From Streptomyces vilmorinianum (GTDB taxonomy: Bacteria > Actinomycetota > Actinomycetes > Streptomycetales > Streptomycetaceae): a stretch of DNA of 64,000 nucleotides. Below, one piece after another: positions 39,271 through 52,440 of this stretch. The position numbers were made by a program, and so were the translations under genes. The notes under the pieces are model-generated. The model was not told the origin of the DNA. It ran no database searches and saw nothing but the letters and a program-made list of their open reading frames with translations. Numbering within the stretch: position 1 is the first letter of the stretch; each line of letters begins with the position of its first letter. The stretch spans positions 6,466,001 to 6,530,000 of the forward strand of contig NZ_CP040244.1 in the NCBI RefSeq assembly GCF_005517195.1, written 5' to 3'.

Positions 39271-39879
39271 CTACCCGCCCGTGGTGCGCGGGAAGGAGAT
39301 CTCGACGCGGCGGTTCTTGGTCCGGCCTTCCTCGGTGCTGTTGTCCGCGATGGGGTAGTCCTCGCTGTACCCGCGGATGTCGAACGTCTTGCCCGGGTCC
39401 AGGTTCTTGGCCAGCTCCTGCTGCACGGCGTCGGCCCGCTGCTTGGAGAGCTTGAGGCCGTGCTCGTACGTCCCGAGGTTGTCGGTGAAGCCGAAGACGC
39501 GGACCTTGCTGGAGTTCTGCTTGTTGATCTCCACGGCGATGGCGGCGATACGGGCGGTGGCGGCGGGGCTGAGCTTGGCGCTGTCCTTGGCGAAGAGCAC
39601 CTCGGCCTGCAGGGCGAAGGTCACATCGACATTGGTGTCCTCACGCCGCTGCTCGCCGCCCTCCTCCTCGACGACCTGCTTGATGTCGAGAATCTTGGCG
39701 GGCGCGAGGGTGGCGCCGTCCGGCAGCATGAGCTCGGGCGAGTTCGCGTCGATCTCGGGGGGCGGGGAGGCGCTGGAGGTGGACCCGGGGGGATCGTCGG
39801 CGAGGACGGGGCCGGTGGAGAGGGTGGTGAGGAAGAGGGTGGCGACGGCGAGGGCGGCGAGGCGGTGGGGAGTGGTCAT
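39271..39879 (-). CDS. secreted OmpA-like peptidoglycan-binding protein
   Basis: A 202-residue exported protein: signal peptide to VLADD (about 1-28), a linker, and a C-terminal OmpA domain (about 75-200). Domain motifs are EVLFAKDSAKLSPAATARIA, VRVFGFTDNLGTYEHGLKLS, KQRADAVQQEL, FDIRGYSEDYPIADNSTEEG and RTKNRRVEISF (Asp and Arg diaminopimelate contacts present). It follows the lipoprotein gene by 11 bp, within the Flp pilin operon. It may anchor an extracellular part of the pilus to peptidoglycan. Confidence 0.85.
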   Translation of the reverse strand: MTTPHRLAALAVATLFLTTLSTGPVLADDPPGSTSSASPPPEIDANSPELMLPDGATLAPAKILDIKQVVEEEGGEQRREDTNVDVTFALQAEVLFAKDSAKLSPAATARIAAIAVEINKQNSSKVRVFGFTDNLGTYEHGLKLSKQRADAVQQELAKNLDPGKTFDIRGYSEDYPIADNSTEEGRTKNRRVEISFPRTTGG

Positions 39880-39890
39880 GGCGGCGTCCG

Positions 39891-40472
39891 TCAGGAGAGT
39901 TTGATGGTGCCGGGACGGAAGGTGGGCAGTTGGAACGTCACCTCGGTGGTGTTGACCGGAGGAGCGGGGAACTGCATGAAGACGTTCGTCGAACGTCCCG
40001 CACCGAGGTCCGACAGACCGGTCGTGGTCAGCGGCCGGCCGTCCGTATCCCGGAGGACGTAATAGCGCTTCTTCCCGACCGAATCCACAAGCGTCGCACC
40101 GCCCAGCGAGATCCCGTGTTGGATGATCTCGGTCTCATCGCCCGCCAGTTGGGTCGGGATGATCTGGGTCGAGCCCGAGGTGTTGACCAGCTTGCCGCTG
40201 ACGGTCAGGAACCCTCCTGCGTCGCGCTTCGCCGACTCGACGGTGAACTCAAGCCCCTGCTGTCCCTTGAGCACGGCAAGGACTTCGGTTGGTTCCTCGG
40301 TCTGTGCCCCCTTGTTGCCTTCCGGTGTGTTGGGGGCCTGGGAACTCGCCGAGGTCTTCTTCTGCGGAGGCTCCTCGTCACTGCCGCAGCCGCCGGCACC
40401 GAGGGTAAGACCAGCCGCAACGACGACAGCGACCATCCCCCTGCGGGTCTTCGTCGCGTACCGAACACTCAT
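39891..40472 (-). CDS. lipoprotein of the pilin operon
   Basis: A 193-residue lipoprotein with lipobox GAGGC (Cys at about 29), a Ser/Lys/Pro-rich linker and a beta-rich domain (GLEFTVESAKRDAGGFLTVS, TEIIQHGISLGGATLVDSVG, KKRYYVLRDTDGRPLTTTGL, STNVFMQFPAPPVNTTEVTF). This resembles DUF4352-like or telomeric TRF2-like immunoglobulin folds in outline. It lies between the TadG-like and OmpA genes, probably co-transcribed, which suggests a surface role linked to the pilus. Confidence 0.72.
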   Translation of the reverse strand: MSVRYATKTRRGMVAVVVAAGLTLGAGGCGSDEEPPQKKTSASSQAPNTPEGNKGAQTEEPTEVLAVLKGQQGLEFTVESAKRDAGGFLTVSGKLVNTSGSTQIIPTQLAGDETEIIQHGISLGGATLVDSVGKKRYYVLRDTDGRPLTTTGLSDLGAGRSTNVFMQFPAPPVNTTEVTFQLPTFRPGTIKLS

Positions 40473-40493: not shown

Positions 40494-41141
40494 TCAATCG
40501 GCCAGTCGGACAGTGAAGAGATCGGCAGCGCTCGGCAGCCTCGGGCGCTCGGGGTCGATCTCCCAGGGATCACCGTCGCACGACAGGCCCTGAATCGGGC
40601 CGGGCTCCGCGGGCTTGGGGTCAGGCTCAGCCGGCTCTGGTTCCGGTTCCGGTGTGGGGTCGGGAGCCTTGAAGGTGCACCGTGGTTCGAGCACTGCTGT
40701 GGCCTCCGCCGTGGCGTGCTGCCCTTCTGTGCCCGGAATGATGGACTCACCCACGGTGTAACGGGTGCGAACCTGCACACGGAACCCCTCTTCCCCAACA
40801 GGCAGGCGCGCGCAGCGTTTACCCCAGAGCTCCGCATCGTTCTTGGCAGCAAACGACGCCGCACGCTCGCAAGCACGAGGCGCGATGTAACTCTCGCCAT
40901 TGAGGAATCGATCCCACGCGGCCGGATCCAGAATGACCTCAAGCCATCCGTCCCGAAGCTGGTTCCGAGCGTCCTGGGCCGCCGCCAACGCGGCGGCGTC
41001 AGCCGCCGTCTGCGCCCCATTGCGCGTCGCGGCGGCCTGCCCAACGGCGAAGTACACGAACGCAAGAAAGAGCAGACCCGCCATCACGGTGATGTAGATG
41101 GGGAAGGCCTGCCCGGAATCGCCGGTGCGACGACCGGTCAC
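40494..41141 (-). CDS. TadG/TadE-like pseudopilin with C-terminal Pro/Glu tail
   Basis: A 215-residue protein with an N-terminal prepilin-like helix (GDSGQAFPIYITVMAGLLFL, AFVYFAVGQAAATRNGAQTA), an external domain with paired cysteines (RACERAASFA, LWGKRCARLP) and a Pro/Glu repeat tail (DPTPEPEPEPAEPDPKPAEP). TadE/G proteins are minor pilins or assembly partners. GTG start overlaps the Flp pilin stop as GTGA, showing tight coupling to the major pilin. Confidence 0.78.
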   Translation of the reverse strand: MTGRRTGDSGQAFPIYITVMAGLLFLAFVYFAVGQAAATRNGAQTAADAAALAAAQDARNQLRDGWLEVILDPAAWDRFLNGESYIAPRACERAASFAAKNDAELWGKRCARLPVGEEGFRVQVRTRYTVGESIIPGTEGQHATAEATAVLEPRCTFKAPDPTPEPEPEPAEPDPKPAEPGPIQGLSCDGDPWEIDPERPRLPSAADLFTVRLAD

Positions 41142-41365
41142 TCGCCTCCGCCACCGCCAGTGAGGCTGGAGATCTTGGTCCTGATCGCGTTCATGATGTC
41201 CTGGCCGATACTCGTACCGGTGATCGCCACCACGATCGCCACGACCACCACAATGATCCCCAGGTACTCGACCGCCGTCTGCCCCCGGTCCCTCGACCGC
41301 GCTCGCACCCAGCCGCCGAAGTGGACCTTTGTCCTCGTCACGGCCTTCAGCAGCACGTCGCTCAT
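41138..41365 (-). CDS. Flp-type major pilin
   Basis: A 75-residue class III prepilin. A short basic leader ends RARSRDRG, followed by the cleavage and assembly motif QTAVEYLGIIVVVVAIVVAI (cut expected after Gly, Glu at +5 and Tyr at +6), and a brief C-terminus (TKISSLTGGGGGE). It forms the shaft of the tight-adherence pilus after processing by the A24 peptidase. ATG 41363-41365 has GGAGGGG upstream. First gene after the terminator that separates it from the response regulator. Confidence 0.85.
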   Translation of the reverse strand: MSDVLLKAVTRTKVHFGGWVRARSRDRGQTAVEYLGIIVVVVAIVVAITGTSIGQDIMNAIRTKISSLTGGGGGE

Positions 41366-41426
41366 GATGGTCCCCTCCGGATGTGTAGGCCCGCGCACGG
41401 TACGCGGCCACCCCACCCCTACCCAA

Positions 41427-41452
41427 GGGCCCGCAGGCCCAAATGCGGGCCC
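41427..41452 (-). terminator. terminator after the response regulator, 9-bp perfect stem
   Basis: GGGCCCGCA and TGCGGGCCC flank GGCCCAAA just past the response-regulator stop on the minus strand. It marks the end of the tad-kinase-regulator transcript and separates the Flp pilin operon. Confidence 0.8.
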
Positions 41453-41455
41453 AAT

Positions 41456-42163
41456 TCACGACGCCGTCCTCGTGCCGAGCCAGGCCGCTATCGCCTCGCT
41501 GCGTGTCGTGGCGTGGAGTTTCGCGAAGATGCGGTTGATGTGGTTCTTGACCGTCTTCTCGCTGATGAAGCAGGTGTCGGCGATCTGCCGATTGCTCAGG
41601 CCCGACGCGATCAGGTCCATCACCTCCGCCTCCCTCCCACTCAGACCAAACCGTCCCACATTCGGTTGCACATGCGAAGTCATTTCGCGAAACCGCAATG
41701 AATTCGAGACACTTGGCACCCCACCACCATGTGCAGTCGCATCCGGAATCCCTCGCACCACCCCCAGCAGCGCATTCGCCGCCGTCGGCGTGAAGTGTGC
41801 CCGGCCCGCCCGTACGTCCCGGACCGCCGTCACCAGTTCCTCCGCCGTGAACTCCCCGTGGACCAGGTACCCGCCCGCCCCCAGCCGCAGCGCCTCCCGC
41901 ACCACCGCGCTCTCGCCGCTGTACGTCAGCATCAGCACCGGAGCCAGGCGGACCAGGTGCGGCAGGGCCGTGAGGCCGTCGACGATCGGCATGCGGACGT
42001 CGAGGAGGACCACGTCCGGGCGGTGGCGTTCCGTCGCCTCGCGTGCCGTGCGGCCGTCCGGGGCCTGGGCCACCACCTCGATGTCGGCGTGGCCGTCCAG
42101 CAGGGCCGTCAGGCCCGCGCGGACCACCGGGTTGTCGTCCGCGATCACGACTCTGAGCGTCAT
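41456..42163 (-). CDS. NarL/LuxR-type response regulator of the pilus locus
   Basis: A 235-residue two-component regulator: a receiver domain (IADDNPVVRAGL, phospho-acceptor Asp55 in VVLLDVRMP, Thr in LMLTYSGES, Lys position replaced by the GEFTAEEL loop) and a C-terminal LuxR HTH (GLSGREAEVMDLIASGLSNR, ISEKTVKNHINRIFAKLHAT). The expected receiver Lys after TYSGES is not obvious (GGYLVHGEF has no Lys), so signalling may differ from the norm. ATG overlaps the kinase stop as ATGA. Probably controls pilus genes. Confidence 0.88.
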   Translation of the reverse strand: MTLRVVIADDNPVVRAGLTALLDGHADIEVVAQAPDGRTAREATERHRPDVVLLDVRMPIVDGLTALPHLVRLAPVLMLTYSGESAVVREALRLGAGGYLVHGEFTAEELVTAVRDVRAGRAHFTPTAANALLGVVRGIPDATAHGGGVPSVSNSLRFREMTSHVQPNVGRFGLSGREAEVMDLIASGLSNRQIADTCFISEKTVKNHINRIFAKLHATTRSEAIAAWLGTRTAS

Positions 42164-43395
42164 CCCGCAGCCCCCTCGACCGAGACCGGGAGTTCCAGGC
42201 GGACCTCCGTGCCCTTCACGGCCGCGCCCCGCCCGATGCGGATCCGCGCCCCCACCTCCGCCGCCCGCTCCACCATGCCCACCAGGCCGAAGTGGCCGGT
42301 CCTGCGCAGGTCGTCCAGGGTCGTGCCCGGGGGCAGGCCGCGGCCGTCGTCGCGCACGCTGATGCGGAGCAGGCCCGCGAAGACACCGGCCGAGACGTCG
42401 ACACGCGTCGGGTGGGCGTGACGGCCCGCGTTCTCCATCGCCTCCGAGGCGATCGTGAGCAGCTGCCGCGCCACCGCGTACGGCACAGGCGGTACGGCGT
42501 CCGCGTCGGCGCCGGCCCCGGCGCCCACGTACCGCGCCTCGATGCCCGAGCGGACCGCGAAGTCCCGTACCCGGTCGGTGAGTTCGGCGGTCACGTCGAC
42601 CGCGCCCGTCCTCCCCCCGGCGTATGACCGGCTGCGGAGGTCCGCGAGCAGCTCGCGCGACTCGGCCGCCGCCCTGCGGGCCGAGCGGGCCACGACCTGC
42701 GCCTGCTGTCGCGGGTCCGGCGACACCGCCAGGGCGTCCGCCGCCAGCGCGAGGCCGTACAGCGTCTTCGCCACCGAGTCGTGCATGTCGCGTGCGAGGC
42801 GGGCCCGTTCCTCCTCCACCGCCTGCGCCGCTGCGAGGGCCCGCGTCGCCGCCCCGAAGCGGAGCAGCAGGTTCCTGAGCGTCACCCCGAGCGCGCCGGT
42901 GATCACGCACAGGCCCGGCAGCAGCGTGGCCTCGCCCACGTCGGCCGCATAGGCCGCGTAGATCGCCAGCAGTATCAGCGACTGGAGGCACGCGAAGAAC
43001 GCGGCCCCGCGCCAGCTGTAGGCCAGACCCGCCAGCAGCGGCGTGCAGACACTGACGTACCCCAGCGTGCTCTCCGGGCCCGCCGTGCCCAGGAGCAGCG
43101 AGCCGAAGAGCGTGTCCGCGGCGAGCAGCGCCGGGTGCCGGAGCAGCAGCGGGCCGAACCGCTCCCAGTCCCTGAACAGCGCGTACGAGACCATGAAGGT
43201 GACCAGGACGGCCGCGCCGACGAGCCAAGCCGCGAGGCCGGGGGCAGCCCCCAGCAGCGCGGCCGGGGTCGCCAGGGCGATCATCGCGAGCCGGAAGCCG
43301 AAGACCTGACGGCACATGGCCTGGAGCGCGTTGACCTGGAGATTGATGGACACGGGCGCGGACACGGGCGCGGACATGGGCGCTGACACGGACAC
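42160..43395 (-). CDS. HisKA_3 sensor histidine kinase of the pilus locus
   Basis: A 411-residue kinase with about five to six membrane helices (about 35-175), a HisKA_3 dimerisation domain (about 195-265; RARLARDMHDSVAKTLYGLA with the phospho-His) and an HATPase domain (about 300-405; RQLLTIASEAMENAGRHAHP, DDGRGLPPG, GLVGMVERAAEVGARI). The N-terminus starts with a Ser-Ala-Pro repeat (SAPMSAPVSAPVS) from 12-bp DNA repeats. The GTG start at 43393-43395 is three bases after the tadC stop, so it is translated as part of the tad operon. Confidence 0.88.
   Translation of the reverse strand: MSVSAPMSAPVSAPVSINLQVNALQAMCRQVFGFRLAMIALATPAALLGAAPGLAAWLVGAAVLVTFMVSYALFRDWERFGPLLLRHPALLAADTLFGSLLLGTAGPESTLGYVSVCTPLLAGLAYSWRGAAFFACLQSLILLAIYAAYAADVGEATLLPGLCVITGALGVTLRNLLLRFGAATRALAAAQAVEEERARLARDMHDSVAKTLYGLALAADALAVSPDPRQQAQVVARSARRAAAESRELLADLRSRSYAGGRTGAVDVTAELTDRVRDFAVRSGIEARYVGAGAGADADAVPPVPYAVARQLLTIASEAMENAGRHAHPTRVDVSAGVFAGLLRISVRDDGRGLPPGTTLDDLRRTGHFGLVGMVERAAEVGARIRIGRGAAVKGTEVRLELPVSVEGAAG
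43349..43390. repeat. 12-bp in-frame tandem repeats at the kinase N-terminus
   Basis: GACACGGGCGCG twice, then GACATGGGCGCT and GACACG, encode the (V/M)SAP repeats just inside the kinase start; some units carry alternative GTG/ATG start codons. Confidence 0.85.
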
Positions 43396-43398
43396 CGC

Positions 43399-44286
43399 TC
43401 ACTCTCCCGTGATCGAGCCGAAGTTCGTTCCCGTCCCCAGGAACAAGCCCGCGCCCAGCAGGATCATCGTCGCCGGGACCATCAGGGTCGTGATCACCAT
43501 CGTCGCCTTGGGGACCGCCTTCGCCGCCTTCCTCCGTGCGTTCTGGGCGTCGGTCCTGCGCATGTCGTTGGCGATCTGGATCAGCGTGTCGACGATCGGC
43601 GCGCCGAGCTCCTCGCCCTGCTGCAGCGCCGTCACGAACTGGGCGACCTGTTCGGAGTCGTTGCGCCGCCGCAGTTCGTCGAAGGCCTGTCGGCGGCTCA
43701 CGCCCATGTCCATCTGGCGCAGCGTGATCCTGAGCTCGTCCGACCAGGGGCCCTCGTACTTGTCCGCCACCCGGTCCAGTGCCTGCCGGAAGCCGAGCCC
43801 GGCCGACACCACCACCGCCAGCACGTCGAGGAAGTCGGGCAGCGTGCGCTCGATCTGGTCCTTGCGGATGCGGATCGCCGACCAGATGCCCACCTCGGTC
43901 CAGAAGGCACCGAAGGCGAGAAGCAGCAGCGCGACGAAGAAGTCGCCGTTGGAGAGCATGACCAGGCCGCCCAGGCCGCCGAGGAATCCGTAGACCGCGC
44001 GCCGGGCTCCGTACCGGTCGATGGTCAGGCCCCCCGGGTTCCCCGCCAGGTCGATCCGGCGCCGGACGGCGTTGACCCGCTTGGGCCCCATCAGGCGCAG
44101 TACGGCGGCGGAGTAGCGCATGCCGAGCCGGTCCACGACGGAGTCCACGGCTCCGGTGCGCGTGGAGCCGACCTCCAGGGCGAGCCGGAGGTCGTCGGGG
44201 AGCTTGGCGTCCGCGCGGTAGAGGCGGATGCCGTGGAAGATCCCGGCGACCGACAGGCCGGCGACGAGGGCCAACAACAGTTCCAT
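43399..44286 (-). CDS. TadC-like pilus platform protein (T2SSF domain)
   Basis: A 295-residue membrane protein with four helices and the GspF/T2SSF domain (PDFLDVLAVVVSAGLGFRQA, LRQMDMGVSRRQAFDELRRR, QFVTALQQGEELGAPIVDTL). It is the second inner-membrane platform subunit that, with TadB, couples the TadA ATPase to pilin assembly. It starts 13 bp after the tadB stop; the sensor kinase starts three bases after its own stop. Confidence 0.87.
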   Translation of the reverse strand: MELLLALVAGLSVAGIFHGIRLYRADAKLPDDLRLALEVGSTRTGAVDSVVDRLGMRYSAAVLRLMGPKRVNAVRRRIDLAGNPGGLTIDRYGARRAVYGFLGGLGGLVMLSNGDFFVALLLLAFGAFWTEVGIWSAIRIRKDQIERTLPDFLDVLAVVVSAGLGFRQALDRVADKYEGPWSDELRITLRQMDMGVSRRQAFDELRRRNDSEQVAQFVTALQQGEELGAPIVDTLIQIANDMRRTDAQNARRKAAKAVPKATMVITTLMVPATMILLGAGLFLGTGTNFGSITGE

Positions 44287-44299
44287 ACGCGTCAGCCCC

Positions 44300-45241
44300 T
44301 CAGACGTCGATCTTCGAGAAGCGGCGGATGACGACGAAGCCGACGACGTACAGCGCGAAGGCGGCGACGACGGCGAACTGGCCGAGGCCCGAGCCCGTCA
44401 TCCGGTCGAGCGCGCCCGGCTGCATGTTGTCGATCAGGAGAAGCGAGCCGATGCCGATGACCGGGACCGCGTACGCCGTCATGCTCACCTGGGAGAGCTG
44501 GGTACGGACCTCGCGACGGGTCTCCTTGCGCTCCTCCAGCGTCTCGGTGAGGTTGCGCAGCGAGGAGACGACCGTGCCGCCCGCCTTGTTGGCGAGGACG
44601 AGGGTGGTGACGAGGACGACCAGTTCGCGGGAGGGCAGGCGCTCGGCGAGTTCGCCGAGGGCGTCGTCGACGGACGTGCCGACCGCGAGCTGCTGGGCGA
44701 CCTTCTCCAGTTCGTCGCCGGCGGGCGCCTCCAGCTCGTCGGCGGCCATGCTGAGCGCCATCCGCAGCGCCAGTCCGGCCTGGGTGGCGTTGGCGAGGAT
44801 CCTCGACAGCTCCGGCAGCTGGTTGATGAACTTCTCGATGCGCTTCTGCCGCTGCCAGTTGAGGAATCCCAGGGCGACCCACACGCCGAGGAAGCCGCAG
44901 ATGGGCCCGAAGAACGGGGAGAGTACGGCCTGTCCGGTGATCCACAGCGCGGCCACCGTCGCGGCCATGGAGACGACGAACTCCCCAGGGGTCAGGTCGA
45001 GTCCGGTGGCGGAGATCCGCAGCTCCAGTCTCCGCCCGAACGCGGTACGGCGTACGCGCCGGTCGACGGCACGGAAGCGGCGTCTGCGCCGGCCGCCGCC
45101 CTCGGGCGCGCCGCTCTCGGTGAGCCGGGCGACCAGGGCGGCGCGCTGGGCGGCTCCACTGGCGTACGTATGGATGCCGAGCACCCCGAGGACGCAGCAG
45201 AGCAGCGCGACGCCGGTCACCAGCCAGGTGAGGTGGTTCAT
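44300..45241 (-). CDS. TadB-like pilus platform protein (T2SSF domain)
   Basis: A 313-residue membrane protein with an N-terminal helix (WLVTGVALLCCVLGVLGI), a basic linker (GGGRRRRRFRAVDRRVRR), paired helices, and a T2SSF domain (LPELSRILANATQAGLALRM, VDDALGELAERLPSRELVVL, LETLEERKETRREVRTQL-like helix). C-terminal membrane helices follow. Located 11 bp after the tadA stop. Confidence 0.87.
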   Translation of the reverse strand: MNHLTWLVTGVALLCCVLGVLGIHTYASGAAQRAALVARLTESGAPEGGGRRRRRFRAVDRRVRRTAFGRRLELRISATGLDLTPGEFVVSMAATVAALWITGQAVLSPFFGPICGFLGVWVALGFLNWQRQKRIEKFINQLPELSRILANATQAGLALRMALSMAADELEAPAGDELEKVAQQLAVGTSVDDALGELAERLPSRELVVLVTTLVLANKAGGTVVSSLRNLTETLEERKETRREVRTQLSQVSMTAYAVPVIGIGSLLLIDNMQPGALDRMTGSGLGQFAVVAAFALYVVGFVVIRRFSKIDV

Positions 45242-45252
45242 GGACGGTCCCC

Positions 45253-46593
45253 CTACTTCGCTTCTCGGGTGGCGAGCTGCTCGTCGGACGCGGCGACGCC
45301 GAAGGCCTGGGGGATCGGCTGGCCCGCCATGTACAGCCGGTCGGCGACCCTGCGGGGCAGCGGGAAGTACGCGTACGACCCGTACACCCGTCCGTCGGCC
45401 GCGAGCGGCTGGGCGCGGAAGGCGCAGACGGTGGCGAGGGTGAAGCGCTCGCGTCCGTTCGAGGCCAGGATGGCGATCTCGGTGATGCGGCGGGTGCCGT
45501 CGGCGTGCCGGGTGAGCTGGACGAGGACGTCGACGGCGCTGTTGATCTGGTCCCTGAGCGCCTCGAAGGGGACCTTGACCTCCGACATCGACGCCAGGGT
45601 CTGCAGGCGCATCAGCGCGTCCTCGGCCGAGTTGGCGTGGACGGTGGCGAGCGAGCCGTCGTGTCCCGTGGACATCGCCTGGAGCATGTCGAGGGTCTCG
45701 CCGCCGCGGACCTCGCCGACGATGATGCGGTCGGGGCGCATGCGCAGGGAGTTGCGGACGAGGTCGCGGATGGTGACCTGGCCGCGGCCCTCGATGTTCG
45801 GGGGGCGGCTCTCCAGACGGATGACATGGGACTGCTGGAGCTGGAGTTCGGCCGAGTCCTCGATGGTGATGACGCGCTCGCCGTCCGGGATCAGTCCGGA
45901 CAGCGCGTTGAGGAGCGTGGTCTTCCCGGTACCGGTGGCGCCGGAGACGATCACGTTGAACTTGGCCTGGACGAGGCCGGCGAGCAGGAACAGCATCTGC
46001 TCGTCGAGCGAGCCGAGCCCGATCATCTCCCGCAGGGTGTACGCGCGGGGGAAGCGGCGGATCGTCAGGGTCGCCCCGGTCAGGGAGAGCGGCGGGATGA
46101 TCACGTTGACGCGCTCGCCGGACGGCAGTCGGGCGTCGACCATCGGATTCGACTCGTCCACACGCCGGTTGACGGTGGAGACGATCCGCTCGATGGTCTG
46201 CATCAGCTGCTCGTGGGAGGCGAAGCGCAGCGGCAGCAGTTCGACCCGGCCCGCACGCTCGATGTAGATCTGGTCGGGGCCGTTGACCATGATCTCGGTG
46301 ATGGAGGCGTCTTCGAGGAGCGGTTCCAGGACGCCGAGGCCGAGCGCCTCGTCGACGACGCGGCGGATCAGCTGGGCGCGTTCGGTGGTGGAGAGGACGG
46401 GGCCCTCGCGGCTGATGATGTGGCCGAGGACGCGCTCCAGTCGGGCGCGCCGCTCGGCGGCCGCGAGCGCGGACATCTCGGTGAGGTCGATCTCCTCGAG
46501 GAGTTTGACGCGGAAGGAGGCGACGAGGTGGCCGTCCTCCCTGCCTCCCGCGCCGTTCTCCTCGGGGGCGCTGATACGGGCCCGCAGACTCAT
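45253..46593 (-). CDS. TadA/CpaF pilus assembly ATPase
   Basis: A 446-residue secretion ATPase. The N-terminal domain has ITEIMVNGPDQIYIERAGRV and a NPMVDARLPSGERVNVIIPP motif. Walker A is GATGTGKTT (218-226). The Asp box is ITIEDSAELQLQQ and Walker B RPDRIIVGEVRGGETLDMLQ. The His box is HDGSLATVHANSAEDALMR. It powers extension (and perhaps retraction) of the Flp pilus from the cytoplasmic face. ATG 46591-46593, two bases after the small TadE-like gene. Confidence 0.93.
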   Translation of the reverse strand: MSLRARISAPEENGAGGREDGHLVASFRVKLLEEIDLTEMSALAAAERRARLERVLGHIISREGPVLSTTERAQLIRRVVDEALGLGVLEPLLEDASITEIMVNGPDQIYIERAGRVELLPLRFASHEQLMQTIERIVSTVNRRVDESNPMVDARLPSGERVNVIIPPLSLTGATLTIRRFPRAYTLREMIGLGSLDEQMLFLLAGLVQAKFNVIVSGATGTGKTTLLNALSGLIPDGERVITIEDSAELQLQQSHVIRLESRPPNIEGRGQVTIRDLVRNSLRMRPDRIIVGEVRGGETLDMLQAMSTGHDGSLATVHANSAEDALMRLQTLASMSEVKVPFEALRDQINSAVDVLVQLTRHADGTRRITEIAILASNGRERFTLATVCAFRAQPLAADGRVYGSYAYFPLPRRVADRLYMAGQPIPQAFGVAASDEQLATREAK

Positions 46594-46595
46594 GC

Positions 46596-46961
46596 TTACT
46601 CGTCCTCCTCGGGCAGGGGCAGGGTGGCGGCCTTCGTCACGGACCCGAAGCCGTCCCAGAAGGGGACGACGGAGGGGATGCGGACGGTGACCGTCGCCGT
46701 GACCTCGTCGGATCCCTCCGGGGCGGAGACGTCGCTGCGTTCGGCGATCCAGCCGCTCATCGCGGCCCGGCCCGCCGCTTCCGGGCCGAGCGTCGTGTCG
46801 TCGTGCGTGGCGGCACGGGCCGCGGCGCGCGCTCCCGTGCCCGCCTGCTGGGCGGCGTACGCGGCGATGCCGAGCTGGATGCCCGCGAGGGCGACGAGCA
46901 GCAGGATGGGCAGGAAGCCGAGGTATTCGACGGCGACCTGGCCCCGGTCACGTGACCTCAT
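46596..46961 (-). CDS. TadE-like pseudopilin (121 aa)
   Basis: A short basic leader RSRDRG is followed by the TadE signature QVAVEYLGFLPILLLVALAG and an external domain with no Cys pair (GSDEVTATVTVRIPSVVPFW). Predicted cleavage is after Gly by the A24 peptidase. ATG overlaps the stop of the preceding TadE-like gene as ATGA. A minor pilin or assembly factor. Confidence 0.85.
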   Translation of the reverse strand: MRSRDRGQVAVEYLGFLPILLLVALAGIQLGIAAYAAQQAGTGARAAARAATHDDTTLGPEAAGRAAMSGWIAERSDVSAPEGSDEVTATVTVRIPSVVPFWDGFGSVTKAATLPLPEEDE

Positions 46962-47398
46962 GGCCCCTCCCTGTCTTCCCGTACGGCTCCGGCCTCACCG
47001 GTCACGGTGAAGGGGAAGCTGATCGCGCCCGGGAAGAGCACCGGCACCTTGAGCCGTACCGTCGCCCGCACCATCTCCCCGGACGGGGCACAGGCCACGG
47101 AGGCTCCCGCCGCCCACGCCCCCTCCAGGTGCCGCCTGCCGGCCTCCTGGCAGTCCCCCTCCACCGCCCCGGCCCGTACCGCCTCGTCCGCCGCGTTCCC
47201 CGCGAGCGTGAAGGTGTAGCCGACCAGGACGCACTGCCACAGCAGCACCAGCGTGAGCAGGATCAGCGGCACCATGCCAAGGAACTCGATCGCCACCTGC
47301 CCCCGGTCGTCCCGGTAGTCCCTGCACTCCCGGTACGCCCGGTACGCCTGGTACTCCCGGTACGCCTGGTGCGCCTGGTGCGCCTGGTAGGCCGGCAT
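46958..47398 (-). CDS. TadE-like pseudopilin with repeat-expanded N-terminus (146 aa)
   Basis: The TadE core is DDRGQVAIEFLGMVPLILLT (cleavage after Gly) followed by a helix and an external domain with paired cysteines (GDCQEAGRRH, ASVACAPSG). Unusually, about 30 residues of Tyr/His/Gln/Arg/Ala repeats (YQAHQAHQAYREYQAYRAYR) precede the cleavage motif, where related pilins have a short basic leader. They come from 9-bp DNA repeats. Start ATG 47396-47398, four bases past the TadZ stop. Confidence 0.8.
   Translation of the reverse strand: MPAYQAHQAHQAYREYQAYRAYRECRDYRDDRGQVAIEFLGMVPLILLTLVLLWQCVLVGYTFTLAGNAADEAVRAGAVEGDCQEAGRRHLEGAWAAGASVACAPSGEMVRATVRLKVPVLFPGAISFPFTVTGEAGAVREDREGP
47305..47393. 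repeat. 9-bp tandem repeats encoding the TadE leader
   Basis: On the plus strand, units of GGT(A/G)CGCCT and GGTACTCCC recur about eight times. They run in frame with the second TadE-like gene and give the (Y/H)(Q/R)(A/E) repeats. Confidence 0.85.
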
Positions 47399-47401
47399 GG
47401 C

Positions 47402-48688
47402 TCAGCGCCCTTTCCCGCGTCGTCGCAGGCCGACCGATCCCCGGTCGTCGCCGCGCGTGAGGGCGAGCTGCTTGCCCGGCCCCCGCGGAGCGCCACCCCG
47501 CGGTGGACGGGCCTCCGGCCCCTGCACCAGGCCCAGTTCACCGGCGAGGGACCACAGGGCCTGCTTCACGGTCGAGCGCGCGTCGAGCTCGTGCATCCGG
47601 CCCGCGTCGACGACGCCCTGCAGTTCCTTGAAGTTGGCGGGGACGACGACGCCCGCCAACCGGGTCCCGGTGATCTTCTGGATGAGGGCGGGCTGGATCT
47701 CGGAGGACCGCGTGTACCGGTTCACCAGGACGGTGCTCTCCTCCGCCTTGCGGATCTGGAGACGGTCCCACATCCGTACGATCCGCTTCGCGGCGCGGAC
47801 CGCGACCACGTCCGGGGTGGTGACGAGGAGCGCCGCGTCGGCCATCTCGACGGCCACGGCGCCCGCGCCGGTCAGATACGTGCCGCAGTCGACGACCACG
47901 ACGTCGTAACGGGAGCGCAGTGCGCCGATGATCTGGCGGGCGGAGCGGTCGGCGACGTCCTCGCCGCGTTCGCCCTCGCCGGGGGCGAGGAGGAGGGCGA
48001 TGCCCGTCTCGTGGGTGTAGACCGCGTCCTGCAGGACGCGGGGCGAGATGTCGTCGACGGCGGCGAGGTCGACGACCGAGCGGCGGAACTGTACGTCGAG
48101 GTAGGAGGCGATGTCGCCGCCCTGGAGGTCCATGTCGACGAGGGCGACGGTGCGGCCGGAGGCCCGGGAGGCGAGGGCGAGCTGCACGGCGGTGACGGTG
48201 GTGCCGACGCCGCCCTTGGCGCCGCTGACGGTGACGACGGTGCCGCCGGGCCCGGTGAGGACGTCGGCGCCCGTGCCGAGGTGGCGGCGGACGCCGGCGG
48301 ACCACTGGGCGGCGGCCTGGACGCGGCTGGCCAGTTCCTCGTAGCCGAGGGGGAGGGTGACCAGGCCGCGGGCGCCGGAGTCCATGGCGGCCGAGAAGAG
48401 CACGGGGCTCGCGTCGGCGGTGATGAGGACGACGCCGACGGCGGGGAAGCGCAGGGCGACCTCGCGGACGAGTTCGAGGGCCGGGACCGGGCCGATCCGC
48501 TCGTGGACCAGGACGACTTCGGGCAGTTCGTCGACGGACTCGGCGGCCAGGCGGGCGAGGGTGTCGACGAGCTGGGTGGAGTCGGCGACGGGTGCGGCGG
48601 GCTCGGCGTCGGGGAGCTGGCTGAGCAGCGTGACGACGGACCGGGCCGCGTCGGGGTCGGCGACGGCCGGCAGGATCCTGGTGCTCAT
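47402..48688 (-). CDS. TadZ/CpaE-like ParA-family ATPase
   Basis: A 428-residue protein: an atypical receiver-like N-terminal domain (about 1-140; EVVLVHERIGPVPALELVRE, VGVVLITADASPVLFSAAMD) and a MinD/ParA ATPase domain (about 145-390). The deviant Walker A is SGAKGGVGTT, followed by VALVDMDLQGGDIASYLDVQ, VVVDCGTYLTGAG and LVNRYTRSSEI. TadZ proteins place the pilus machine at a cell site. ATG 48686-48688. The basic C-terminal tail (GLRRRGKGR) is variable. Confidence 0.86.
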   Translation of the reverse strand: MSTRILPAVADPDAARSVVTLLSQLPDAEPAAPVADSTQLVDTLARLAAESVDELPEVVLVHERIGPVPALELVREVALRFPAVGVVLITADASPVLFSAAMDSGARGLVTLPLGYEELASRVQAAAQWSAGVRRHLGTGADVLTGPGGTVVTVSGAKGGVGTTVTAVQLALASRASGRTVALVDMDLQGGDIASYLDVQFRRSVVDLAAVDDISPRVLQDAVYTHETGIALLLAPGEGERGEDVADRSARQIIGALRSRYDVVVVDCGTYLTGAGAVAVEMADAALLVTTPDVVAVRAAKRIVRMWDRLQIRKAEESTVLVNRYTRSSEIQPALIQKITGTRLAGVVVPANFKELQGVVDAGRMHELDARSTVKQALWSLAGELGLVQGPEARPPRGGAPRGPGKQLALTRGDDRGSVGLRRRGKGR

Positions 48689-48695
48689 ACCGGCC

Positions 48696-49409
48696 TCACT
48701 TGTCCTTGTCGAGCGTGTAGGTGCGGTCGCCGGGGCTGACGGTGGGTTCGCTGCCGGGGGCGACGGGTGCGACCAGCGCGAGCCGTACGTGCTCGGCGAA
48801 GGACTCGGCGTACGCGACACGCTGGGTGTCGAGGGTGGAGAGGGCGAAGGTGATCGGTACGGCCTCGGTGGCGCGGCTGCTCCGGTCGTTCCGGTCGCTG
48901 ATGGGGGTGAGCTTGCCGACGTCGAGGACGCGGGCGTTGCTGACGATGACCTTGGACTGGGCCGGCCGGCCGTTCTTCTCGCCGGCGAAGGTGGCGTAGA
49001 TGTTGACCGTCGCGCCGGGGGTGATCTTGCCGGCGACCCCGGTGGCGGCGTCGATCATGATGGCGATCTCCTGCTGGCCCGGCTGGAGCGCCGGGCGTTT
49101 GACGATCATGTCGGTCTGCAGCAGGGATCCGGCCCGGAGCGTGGTGACGGCGATCTTTCCCTCGACCTGCGCGAGGTCGGTGACGGCGTTGGCCGAGAGC
49201 CAGCGCTCGGGCATCGAGATCTTCTGGAACTGTCCGGCGCTCAGCGGGGTGTAGGGCGCCACGTCGCTCCTGATCCGGTACGCCGTCACCTCGGGTCCGA
49301 CCTTGGAGTTCACGTCGCCGATCACCGAGAGGACACCGGCGAAGGCGCCCAGGGCACACAGGACCGACAGCAGAAGAAGAAGGACGCCACGACGCTGGCG
49401 GGAGTTCAT
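48696..49409 (-). CDS. CpaB/RcpC-like SAF-domain pilus protein
   Basis: A 237-residue membrane-anchored protein with one N-terminal helix (GVLLLLLSVLCALGAFAGVL), a SAF domain (YTPLSAGQFQKISMPERWLS, TTLRAGSLLQTDMIV) and the RcpC part (GQQEIAIMIDAATGVAGKIT, PGATVNIYATFAGEKNGRPA, SKVIVSNARVLDVG). In tad systems this binds wall or secretin-like components. ATG 49407-49409. Seven bases before the TadZ start. Confidence 0.85.
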   Translation of the reverse strand: MNSRQRRGVLLLLLSVLCALGAFAGVLSVIGDVNSKVGPEVTAYRIRSDVAPYTPLSAGQFQKISMPERWLSANAVTDLAQVEGKIAVTTLRAGSLLQTDMIVKRPALQPGQQEIAIMIDAATGVAGKITPGATVNIYATFAGEKNGRPAQSKVIVSNARVLDVGKLTPISDRNDRSSRATEAVPITFALSTLDTQRVAYAESFAEHVRLALVAPVAPGSEPTVSPGDRTYTLDKDK

Positions 49410-49496: not shown

Positions 49497-50381
49497 CTAC
49501 GGGACACGGGCCGCGGAGGCGTGGTTCCCGGCCGTGAGCGCCCGGGGTTCCGTCGCGGCGGCGGTCGGCAGCGGGGCGGAGCAGAAGCCGCAGCGGTCGC
49601 CGATGAACTCCATCCGGCACCAGTGGCAGGTCTCGCGCCGTACGGAGGAGACCAGTTGGTACAGGACGGCGATGTCCGGCAGGTAGGCGGCGAACTCCAC
49701 CAGCCGGCCCGTCCCCCACCAGCGCGGCGACTCGGCGGGCAGCGGCGCCTCCTGCACGGCCTGGACCTGCCAGCGCGGGGCGAGGGTGGCGGTGGGCCAC
49801 TCGGTCTGCAGCTGTCCTCGGGCCAGGACGAGCTGGGTGGCGAACTCGGGTCCGGCCGGCGGTTCGGCGCCCGGCGCGATCCTGACGAGCTGCGGGACGG
49901 GCCCGGCGAGCACGGCGAACTGGGCCCCGGGCATCCAGCCCTTGAGGTGGGACTTCAGGCTGACCGGTACGCGGTCGAGCTTGGCCACCGAGCCGAGGAC
50001 GGCCCCGGCGTAGATGTAGTGGGCGAGCAGCCGCGCGGCCGAGGCGACGACACCGGGGCTGAAGTCGCAGACGGACAACTGCCGTAGCTGCCGGGCCAGT
50101 ACGGCGGTCCCGAGGGGCGGCAGATCGGTCTTGACCAGGGCGATCCGGTCGCTCTCCAGGAGGGACCGTACGGCGTACAGGCGCCGCTCCGTCGCGGTCG
50201 GCACGGAGGACGGGCAGACCACGATCACGTAGCCGTACCGGTCGAGGAGGAGCTGCAGGTCGGCGACGGCGGAGGCCAGCGGCTGGGTCTCGGGCGCGGG
50301 CAGGACGGCGGCCGTGGGCGTCTGCTGGTCGGTCGGTGGCAGCACCAGGTCGGCACTGGTGACCGCGATCGCTGTCGGCAC
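49497..50381 (-). CDS. unknown zinc-ribbon protein leading the tad operon
   Basis: A 294-residue soluble protein without membrane segments. The N-terminal half has an ATP- or nucleotide-binding-like strand order (LQLLLDRYGYVIVVCPSSVP, RIALVKTDLPPLGTAVLARQ, FSPGVVASAARLLAHYIYAG). The C-terminus has a four-Cys zinc ribbon (CHWCRMEFIGDRCGFC). I cannot assign it to a named family. It is first in the tad transcript (87 bp before CpaB), so it may be a cytoplasmic accessory or regulator of the pilus. Confidence 0.7.
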   Translation of the reverse strand: MPTAIAVTSADLVLPPTDQQTPTAAVLPAPETQPLASAVADLQLLLDRYGYVIVVCPSSVPTATERRLYAVRSLLESDRIALVKTDLPPLGTAVLARQLRQLSVCDFSPGVVASAARLLAHYIYAGAVLGSVAKLDRVPVSLKSHLKGWMPGAQFAVLAGPVPQLVRIAPGAEPPAGPEFATQLVLARGQLQTEWPTATLAPRWQVQAVQEAPLPAESPRWWGTGRLVEFAAYLPDIAVLYQLVSSVRRETCHWCRMEFIGDRCGFCSAPLPTAAATEPRALTAGNHASAARVP

Positions 50382-50640
50382 GTCGGGCTCCCCGTCCCCA
50401 TGTCCCCATGACTCACTGCGTTCACTGCGTTACTGCACAGCGCGGTGCCTCTGCACTTTATCCACGACCCGTGGGCTGGTGAACACACAATCCGCCAAGC
50501 GCCAGGAGATTTCTGGGCCCGCTTGGGCCTTGCCGTGGGCCTTGACATAGGCCCCGCCGTGGGTCCTGCCGTGGGTCTGACGGTGGGCCCGGACCTGGGC
50601 CCCAGGGCCCACGCGTCAACTCGCCTTCCCTCCACAGGTC
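50382..50640. other. intergenic region before the chitinase with degenerate repeats
   Basis: No gene is supported. It contains a run of degenerate CCGTGGG(C/T)CTTG(A/C)-type units (about 50506-50620), and the promoter of the tad operon must lie near 50382-50440. Confidence 0.45.
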
Positions 50641-50669
50641 TTGACAACTCAATTGGTCTGGACCAGATT
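50641..50669 (+). promoter_or_regulatory. chitinase promoter with DasR-type (dre) operator
   Basis: TTGACA (50641-50646) and CAGATT (50664-50669) are 17 bp apart. Between and over them lies TGGTCTGGACCA (50654-50665) within ATTGGTCTGGACCAGAT, a close match to the DasR consensus ACTGGTCTAGACCACT. DasR, the GntR repressor released by glucosamine-6-phosphate, is known to control Streptomyces chitinases through such sites. Confidence 0.85.
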
Positions 50670-50736
50670 GCAGCCCCAGCGGTGGCCACCGTTCCCGACC
50701 CCTCCAGACCCCCGACTCCCCCACCGGAGGCAGCAA

Positions 50737-52440
50737 GTGGACCGCACCACCACACGCGCGCGCAGATGGATCGGCGGCGCCCTGGCACTGGCCGTCGGCT
50801 CCGGCCTCGTCCTCGTCGGCGGCGCCGGCACCGCCCAGGCCGCGGACGTCAACGTGGCCAAGAACGCGGGCTTCGAGTCCGGCACCGCCAACTGGACCTG
50901 TTCCGCCGGCAGCGGCACCGCCGTCTCCTCGCCCGTACGCACAGGGGCCGGCGCCCTCAAGGCCACGCCGGCCGGCCAGGACAACGCCAGGTGCACCCAG
51001 GTCGTCACCGTCAAGCCCAACTCGACGTACACGCTGAGCGCGTGGGTGCAGGGCGGGTACGCGTACCTCGGCGCGAGCGGCACCGGCACCACGGACGTCT
51101 CCACCTGGACCCCGGACAGCTCCTCCTGGAAGCAGCTGACCACCAGCTTCACCACCGGCGCGAACACCACGTCGGTGACCGTCTACACCCACGGCTGGTA
51201 CGGCCAGGCCCCGATATACGTCGACGACGTCTCCGTCTTCGGCCCCGACGGGGGCGGCGGCACCGACCCCGACCCGGTCGTCCCGGCGACTCCCGCGGGC
51301 CTCGCCGCGGGCACGGTCACCTCGTCCTCCGTCGCGCTGAGCTGGAACGCGGTCTCGGGCGCCACCGGCTACAAGGTCTACCGCAACGGCACGCTCGCGC
51401 AGTCGGTCTCCGGCACCTCGGCGACCGTGACGGGGCTCGCCGCCGGCACCACGTACCAGTTCCAGGTCTCCGCGACGAACACGGCGGGCGAGTCCGCCAA
51501 GTCCGCCACCGTCTCCGCGACGACGAGCGAGGTCACCGACCCCGGCCCCGGCCCGGCCGTCCCCAAGCACGCCCTGACCGGCTACTGGCAGAACTTCGAC
51601 AACGGCGCGACCGTCCAGAAGCTCCGGGACGTCCAGGCGCAGTACGACATCATCGCCGTCTCCTTCGCCGACTCCACCGCCACTCCCGGCCAGATCGTCT
51701 TCAACCTCGACCCGGCCGTCGGATACGCCTCGGTCGCCGACTTCAAGGCCGACATCGCGGCCAAGAAGGCGGCGGGCAAGTCCGTGATCATCTCGGTCGG
51801 CGGCGAGAAGGGGAACGTCACGATCAACAGTGACGCCTCCGCGACCGCCTTCGCGAACAGCGCGTACGCCCTGATGCAGGAGTACGGCTTCAACGGCGTC
51901 GACATCGACCTGGAGCACGGCATCAACTCCACGTACCTGACCAAGGCGCTGCGCCAGCTGTCGGCCAAGGCGGGCTCGTCGATGGTGCTGACGATGGCCC
52001 CGCAGACCATCGACATGCAGAACACCGGCACCGAGTACTTCAAGACCGCGCTCGCCGTGAAGGACATCCTCACGGTGGTCAACATGCAGTACTACAACAG
52101 CGGTTCGATGCTCGGCTGCGACGGCAAGGTGTACAGCCAGGGCTCGGTGGACTTCCTCACCGCGCTCGCCTGCATCCAGCTCCAGGGCGGCCTCGACGCC
52201 TCCCAGGTCGGGCTCGGCGTGCCCGCCTCGACCCGGGGCGCGGGCAGCGGCTACGTCGACCCGTCGATCGTGAGGAACGCGCTGGACTGCCTGGCGCGCG
52301 GCACCAACTGCGGTTCCTTCAAGCCCTCGCAGACCTGGCCGGGCCTGCGCGGTGCGATGACCTGGTCGACCAACTGGGACGCGACGGCCGGGAACGCCTG
52401 GTCCAACGCGGTCGGACCGCACGTCCACAACCTCCCGTAA
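50737..52440 (+). CDS. secreted GH18 chitinase with CBM and FnIII domains
   Basis: A 567-residue exoenzyme: signal peptide (about 1-35, ending TAQA), a CBM16/CBM4_9-like carbohydrate-binding module (about 36-165; NAGFESGTANWTCSAGSGTA, YVDDVSVFGPDGG), a fibronectin III domain (about 183-265; LSWNAVSGATGYKVYRNGTL) and a GH18 catalytic domain (about 275-567). The catalytic motif is GVDIDLEHG: Asp389, Asp391 and the acid Glu393. The Met-rich VNMQYYNSG loop is typical. It cuts chitin to oligosaccharides outside the cell. GTG 50737 follows GGAGG by six bases. A dre site lies upstream. Confidence 0.93.
   Translation: MDRTTTRARRWIGGALALAVGSGLVLVGGAGTAQAADVNVAKNAGFESGTANWTCSAGSGTAVSSPVRTGAGALKATPAGQDNARCTQVVTVKPNSTYTLSAWVQGGYAYLGASGTGTTDVSTWTPDSSSWKQLTTSFTTGANTTSVTVYTHGWYGQAPIYVDDVSVFGPDGGGGTDPDPVVPATPAGLAAGTVTSSSVALSWNAVSGATGYKVYRNGTLAQSVSGTSATVTGLAAGTTYQFQVSATNTAGESAKSATVSATTSEVTDPGPGPAVPKHALTGYWQNFDNGATVQKLRDVQAQYDIIAVSFADSTATPGQIVFNLDPAVGYASVADFKADIAAKKAAGKSVIISVGGEKGNVTINSDASATAFANSAYALMQEYGFNGVDIDLEHGINSTYLTKALRQLSAKAGSSMVLTMAPQTIDMQNTGTEYFKTALAVKDILTVVNMQYYNSGSMLGCDGKVYSQGSVDFLTALACIQLQGGLDASQVGLGVPASTRGAGSGYVDPSIVRNALDCLARGTNCGSFKPSQTWPGLRGAMTWSTNWDATAGNAWSNAVGPHVHNLP

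Follow-up and report, generated by a model that had tools for sequence, protein, structure and literature searches.

Tad pilus loci are widespread in actinobacteria, and how their pilin genes are controlled is the question raised by a locus of Streptomyces vilmorinianum in which a sensor kinase and a response regulator are encoded between the assembly genes and the pilin genes. The locus lies within a 64,000-nucleotide stretch of contig NZ_CP040244.1 (the window), and a preliminary description, made from the sequence alone, proposed that the pair is transcribed together with the assembly genes, is separated from the adjoining pilin operon by a perfect terminator, and could control that operon in response to surface contact or the state of the pilus. 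A paper on the control of Tad loci in Streptomyces was not found in the open-access literature, and likewise none on this pair.

Organization of the locus

A complete actinobacterial Tad locus, including the pilin genes and the kinase-regulator pair, is encoded on the minus strand of the window in the order cpaB, cpaE-like, two tadE-like genes, tadA, tadB, tadC, kinase, regulator, flp, tadG-like, a small lipoprotein-like gene, and an OmpA-family gene. The first gene of the tad cluster (49497-50381) is conserved and has no Pfam family; its product has a CxxC-type pattern close to the C-terminus. The assembly genes from cpaB to tadB occupy 44300-49409, and tadC (with DUF5936 and T2SSF domains) 43399-44286. 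The predicted target, flp (41138-41365), encodes a 75-residue Flp/Fap-type pilin whose Pfam Flp_Fap match (E-value 2e-4) is below the curated cut-off, and the pilin operon also encodes a TadE/G-like pilus protein (40494-41141). The OmpA-family and small lipoprotein-like genes (39271-40472) follow flp-tadG in nearly all related loci; the host group is Gram-positive.

The kinase (42160-43395, minus strand) is of the HisKA_3 type, with Pfam HisKA_3 and HATPase_c domains, the phospho-acceptor histidine, HATPase N and G boxes, and an HDSVAK motif that places a lysine five residues past the histidine (H+5). It has about five to six membrane helices, almost no extracytoplasmic loop, and no sizeable extracytoplasmic domain, a topology that would fit sensing inside the membrane or through a partner and that speaks neither for nor against the sensing of surface contact or pilus state. 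The regulator (41456-42163, minus strand) is of the NarL/FixJ type, with Pfam Response_reg and GerE domains.

As described previously, the kinase starts 3 bp after tadC (GTG at 43395-43393, tadC end at 43399), a distance that hinges on the choice of this GTG within a low-complexity N-terminus, and the kinase stop and regulator start overlap by ATGA (42163-42160). A single tadC-kinase-regulator transcript is plausible in this genome, but the corresponding tadC-kinase gap is 30-600 bp in most relatives, so that joint transcription with the assembly genes has not been conserved, and we rejected coupling of the kinase to tadC as a conserved feature.

Distribution of the kinase-regulator pair

Among 150 Streptomyces genomes sampled, tadC was found in 148 and the regulator in at least 101, the latter being a lower bound with 19 candidates scored per genome and two genomes (G010 and G091) reassigned from their loci; a second draw gave 101 of 149. 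About two thirds of Streptomyces have the pair between tadC and flp, and it also occurs there in sister genera and other actinobacterial families. Its linkage to the Tad locus is conserved, with the order tadC-kinase-regulator-flp-tadG present in most of 80 mapped loci, and the pair is an old cassette of the tadC-flp interval.

In a TadA-TadB-TadC tree, three of the four closest relatives of the window (L088, L089, and L107) have no pair, and the tree requires no fewer than 9-10 changes of state, for the most part losses. Some mapped loci have neither kinase nor regulator, one (L101) has decayed remnants, and four (L081, L127, L203, and L204) have a regulator without a kinase. The pair is dispensable for the pilus, since about one third of Streptomyces lack it but retain the pilus genes.

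A predicted operator upstream of flp

Upstream of flp, 131 of the 132 loci that have a regulator share a conserved block, TTGGGCCCnnnnTTGGGCCCnnGGRCCCT; set side by side, the gaps between regulator and flp in relatives read TTGGGCCCGnnaTTGGGCCCTGGGRCCCT. In the window the predicted operator (41426-41454, minus strand) consists of box A, TTGGGCCC, and a dyad, TTGGGCCTGCGGGCCCT. A 17-bp operator core is matched at no fewer than 15 positions in 131 of these 132 loci, and a TAYNNT -10 lies exactly 23 bp past the core in the same proportion, the predicted flp -10 in the window being TACCGT (41397-41402, minus strand). The pattern is present in none of 28 regulator-less loci.

A strict genome-wide search, with the spacing to the -10 built in and the reversed pattern as control, returned 99 sites in 85 of 150 whole Streptomyces genomes and none for the control. 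Only three of 49 genomes scored as regulator-less had a site; two of these have a diverged regulator (G010 at L090 and G091 at L413), and the third a decayed fresh remnant (G092 at L101). Among nine independent contrasts in regulator presence on the TadABC tree, the operator tracks the regulator in about seven and is opposed in practically none (median p 0.016), although physical linkage inflates this co-inheritance because the operator adjoins the regulator gene. Ghost operators at L093, L097, L200, L216, and L218 have a degraded dyad with the -10 still at 23 bp, showing that the site decays by mutation and not only through shared deletion. In the genomes compared, the intact operator appears only with the regulator or a fresh remnant of it, and apparently decays in place after regulator loss.

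The perfect terminator of the preliminary description coincides with this element. A 9-bp inverted repeat is indeed present at 41426-41454, folding to about -20 kcal/mol, and corresponds to boxes A and C of the operator element; it has no U-run, was not recognised as a terminator, and, when more of the flanking sequence is included, shows no better folding than shuffled sequence. Among 132 relatives, 131 keep a fixed distance between the element and the pilin -10, which neither chance nor termination explains. It is very improbable that the repeat is the intrinsic terminator of the tad-kinase-regulator transcript and that its conservation reflects termination. Pairing is possible between boxes A and C (5-6 of 6 bp in 115 of 131 loci), the region folds to about -20 kcal/mol, and actinobacterial terminators often have no U-tract; but no T-tract follows the repeat, the dyad is conserved better than box A (which is absent from several loci), similar sites precede other promoters, and the operator-like repeat is lost in regulator-less loci. 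We rejected termination because the U-tract is absent and because the spacing is fixed to the -10, at 23 bp, rather than to the regulator stop, from which the distance ranges from 4 to 206 nt. Separation of the pilin operon by a terminator is thus not supported, and the sequence is better read as the putative operator of the regulator.

A looser form of the dyad has eight matches in the window's own genome, two of which are one place on both strands (50596-50611), about 215 bp ahead of the first gene of the tad operon, in the interval that separates the operon from a divergently oriented GH18 chitinase-like gene (50641-52440, plus strand). Comparable dyads lie upstream of the tad operon in a few relatives, and because there is no fitting -10 in the tad direction the dyad is only a candidate second site. 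Several genomes have an extra operator site 3' of ompA, often 22 bp from a -10, preceding a second pilin gene (L114), a pilin-like gene (L286), or a gene for a membrane protein of about 270 residues. The last of these is found downstream of ompA behind the same operator in L116, L117, L121, L255, L260, L265, L273, L274, and L282, and is a possible regulon member.

An element within the regulator gene

The regulator gene itself contains a second cis-element, TTCGCAnnYGCAAYnnnnTGTGGSACAGT, which occupies a single constant frame in 130 of 132 loci (TTCGCATGTGCAACCGAATGTGGGACGGT at 41650-41678 in the window, minus strand) and persists upstream of flp in 18 of 28 regulator-less loci, using a threshold score of at least 18 of 23 where the best of 446 control regions scored 16. 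No genome has more than one copy of it, and the control gave zero matches. Its codons are at the end of a disordered inter-domain linker (residues 141-166, pLDDT under 50) and have a GC3 of 0.51 compared with 0.87 upstream, and the glutamine codon is CAA in 129 of 130, against a preference for CAG elsewhere. As TTCGCA and SACAGT are separated by a promoter-like 17 bp, a promoter is the likeliest reading. We rejected the possibility that genomes without the regulator have acquired a new promoter element, since the same element is present within the linker codons of intact regulators. In the tadC-flp interval of L088 and L105, short reading frames past the element resemble, by eye, shrunken remnants of the start of the regulator HTH.

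Substituted residues in the kinase and regulator

The receiver retains the acidic pair (DD), Asp55, and Thr80, but the conserved lysine is histidine in 131 of 131 loci (His102 in the window, within GYLVHGEF), so that the full quintet of DD, D, T, and K is incomplete; other regulators examined in this genome have lysine at this position. The kinase has lysine at H+5 in 118 of 121 cases and threonine in three records of one lineage, rather than the phosphatase-linked glutamine or histidine of HisKA_3 kinases, and the other HisKA_3 kinases of this genome with a readable motif mostly have histidine or glutamine there. In the DesK-DesR system, Gln193 of DesK contacts the modified Asp54 of DesR and is placed to position the dephosphorylating water, and Lys102 of DesR stabilises the phosphoryl group (PMC5231405). 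The kinase and regulator have each lost, in a matched way, a residue conserved in their families.

By published definition a receiver with any one of the five residues missing is a pseudo-receiver, and such changes need not abolish phosphorylation (PMC12632262). With no conserved lysine, normal phospho-activation of this regulator is unsure. An acidic-pair aspartate has been lost in three of four loci in which the regulator has no kinase (two lineages) and in none of the other 127, and the acidic pair is retained wherever the kinase is retained. Confinement of this loss to kinase-less regulators suggests that phosphorylation matters where the kinase is present, and is a hint that the regulator may be phosphorylated.

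A class-wide search with the kinase motif was swamped by another match, IHDVLSKSL, which we take to be RNA polymerase beta prime, and MHDSVxK-type matches alone were followed. Kinases with this motif are present at tad loci of other actinobacterial families, with the same gene order and GYLVHG regulators (L407-L409, L411, and L412), and in two of these loci (L411 and L412) the operator recurs, its -10 some 22-23 bp away as judged by eye. A paralogous pair outside a tad locus (L410:7806-9226) has the same lysine and histidine exchange (HDSVSK and GYLVHGQF), and a GYLVHG partner is present in six of six pairs found outside Streptomyces through the kinase lysine and then read. A speculative and rather unlikely explanation is that the receiver active site is split, with the kinase lysine replacing in trans the receiver lysine now fixed as histidine. 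By homology with DesK Gln193 the H+5 lysine would reach the receiver phosphorylation site; efficient charging of the regulator would then require its own kinase, which would not dephosphorylate it in the usual way. Two points limit this explanation: the six pairs may have a common origin, and in one Streptomyces lineage the lysine is replaced by threonine.

A model for control of the pilin operon

We propose, with considerable confidence, that the pair constitutes a dedicated Tad-pilus two-component system acting from kinase to regulator to operator to flp, most likely by class II-like activation. The membrane-embedded kinase would pass a signal to the regulator, which would bind the GGGYCC-nn-GGRCCC dyad and the upstream half-site TTGGGCCC just upstream of the flp -35 region; with the dyad centred near -43, the pilin operon would most likely be activated as by a class II activator. 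Gene order, operator conservation and specificity, the 23-bp spacing, co-inheritance, and decay after regulator loss are the basis of the model in the sequences, and from these we infer that the binding protein is this regulator, that its effect is activation, and that phosphorylation drives it. The earlier suggestion that the pair controls the pilin operon is strongly supported at this level, by operator co-inheritance, by the fixed spacing to the flp -10, and by decay of the site after regulator loss.

Another protein, lost together with the regulator, could in principle use the site. Repression of flp by the regulator, with the kinase relieving it, is improbable: the operator adjoins the -35 region, and the kinase-less regulators retain both operator and GYLVHGEF, but a site fixed upstream near -43 is typically that of an activator, repressor sites being more variable, and a promoter scan at flp found no consensus-like -35/-10 pair, as expected of an activator-dependent promoter. 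The fixed spacing fits an activator best. We consider it highly improbable that the pair mainly regulates envelope, development, or other functions and resides in the locus by chance or selfish linkage; although the pair is often lost while the pilus genes stay, a few dyad matches occur elsewhere genome-wide, and the paralogous pair at L410 is not at a tad locus, the strict operator matches in the 150 genomes are nearly all at tad loci, the only one in the window's own genome is at the flp promoter, and the tadC-kinase-regulator-flp order persists across families.

With a predicted operator and promoter, a candidate regulator, and lineages missing each part, Tad control under the proposed two-component system is directly testable. 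The matched exchange of lysine and histidine offers a natural experiment on the active-site residues required by a kinase and its regulator, and regulatory rewiring is cleanly illustrated by the pair's repeated loss and the accompanying decay of its site.

Comparison with known systems

The PprA-PprB system is proteobacterial, and its locus is organised differently from the one described here. In two reports, this Pseudomonas aeruginosa two-component system is tied to biofilm formation and Flp pilus genes (PMC3510237, PMC6821963). Two-component control of Tad loci is already known from Pectobacterium, where ECA0785/ECA0786 likewise adjoin the Tad locus, flanking flp/tad, and positively regulate its genes, the regulator raising flp/tad expression (PMC3767616). 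That pair consists of an OmpR-type regulator and a BaeS-type kinase, families other than those described here, and a comparable operator is not described in the available part of that report. DesK-DesR is likewise a HisKA_3 kinase with a NarL-type regulator and provides the structural frame for the swapped residues, but has Gln193 and Lys102 where this pair has lysine and histidine (PMC5231405). BldM and WhiI are likewise atypical response regulators of Streptomyces (PMC4125116, PMC12632262), but are orphans, whereas the regulator described here has a cognate kinase and keeps the aspartate and acidic pair. The NCBIfam models for MacS (NF047322) and MadR (NF047785) are among the best for the kinase and regulator, with scores of 59 of 300 and 121 of 300 bits that are far below the cut-offs for membership. 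Relative to these systems, the actinobacterial family, its operator, the paired residue swap, and the embedded element are new.
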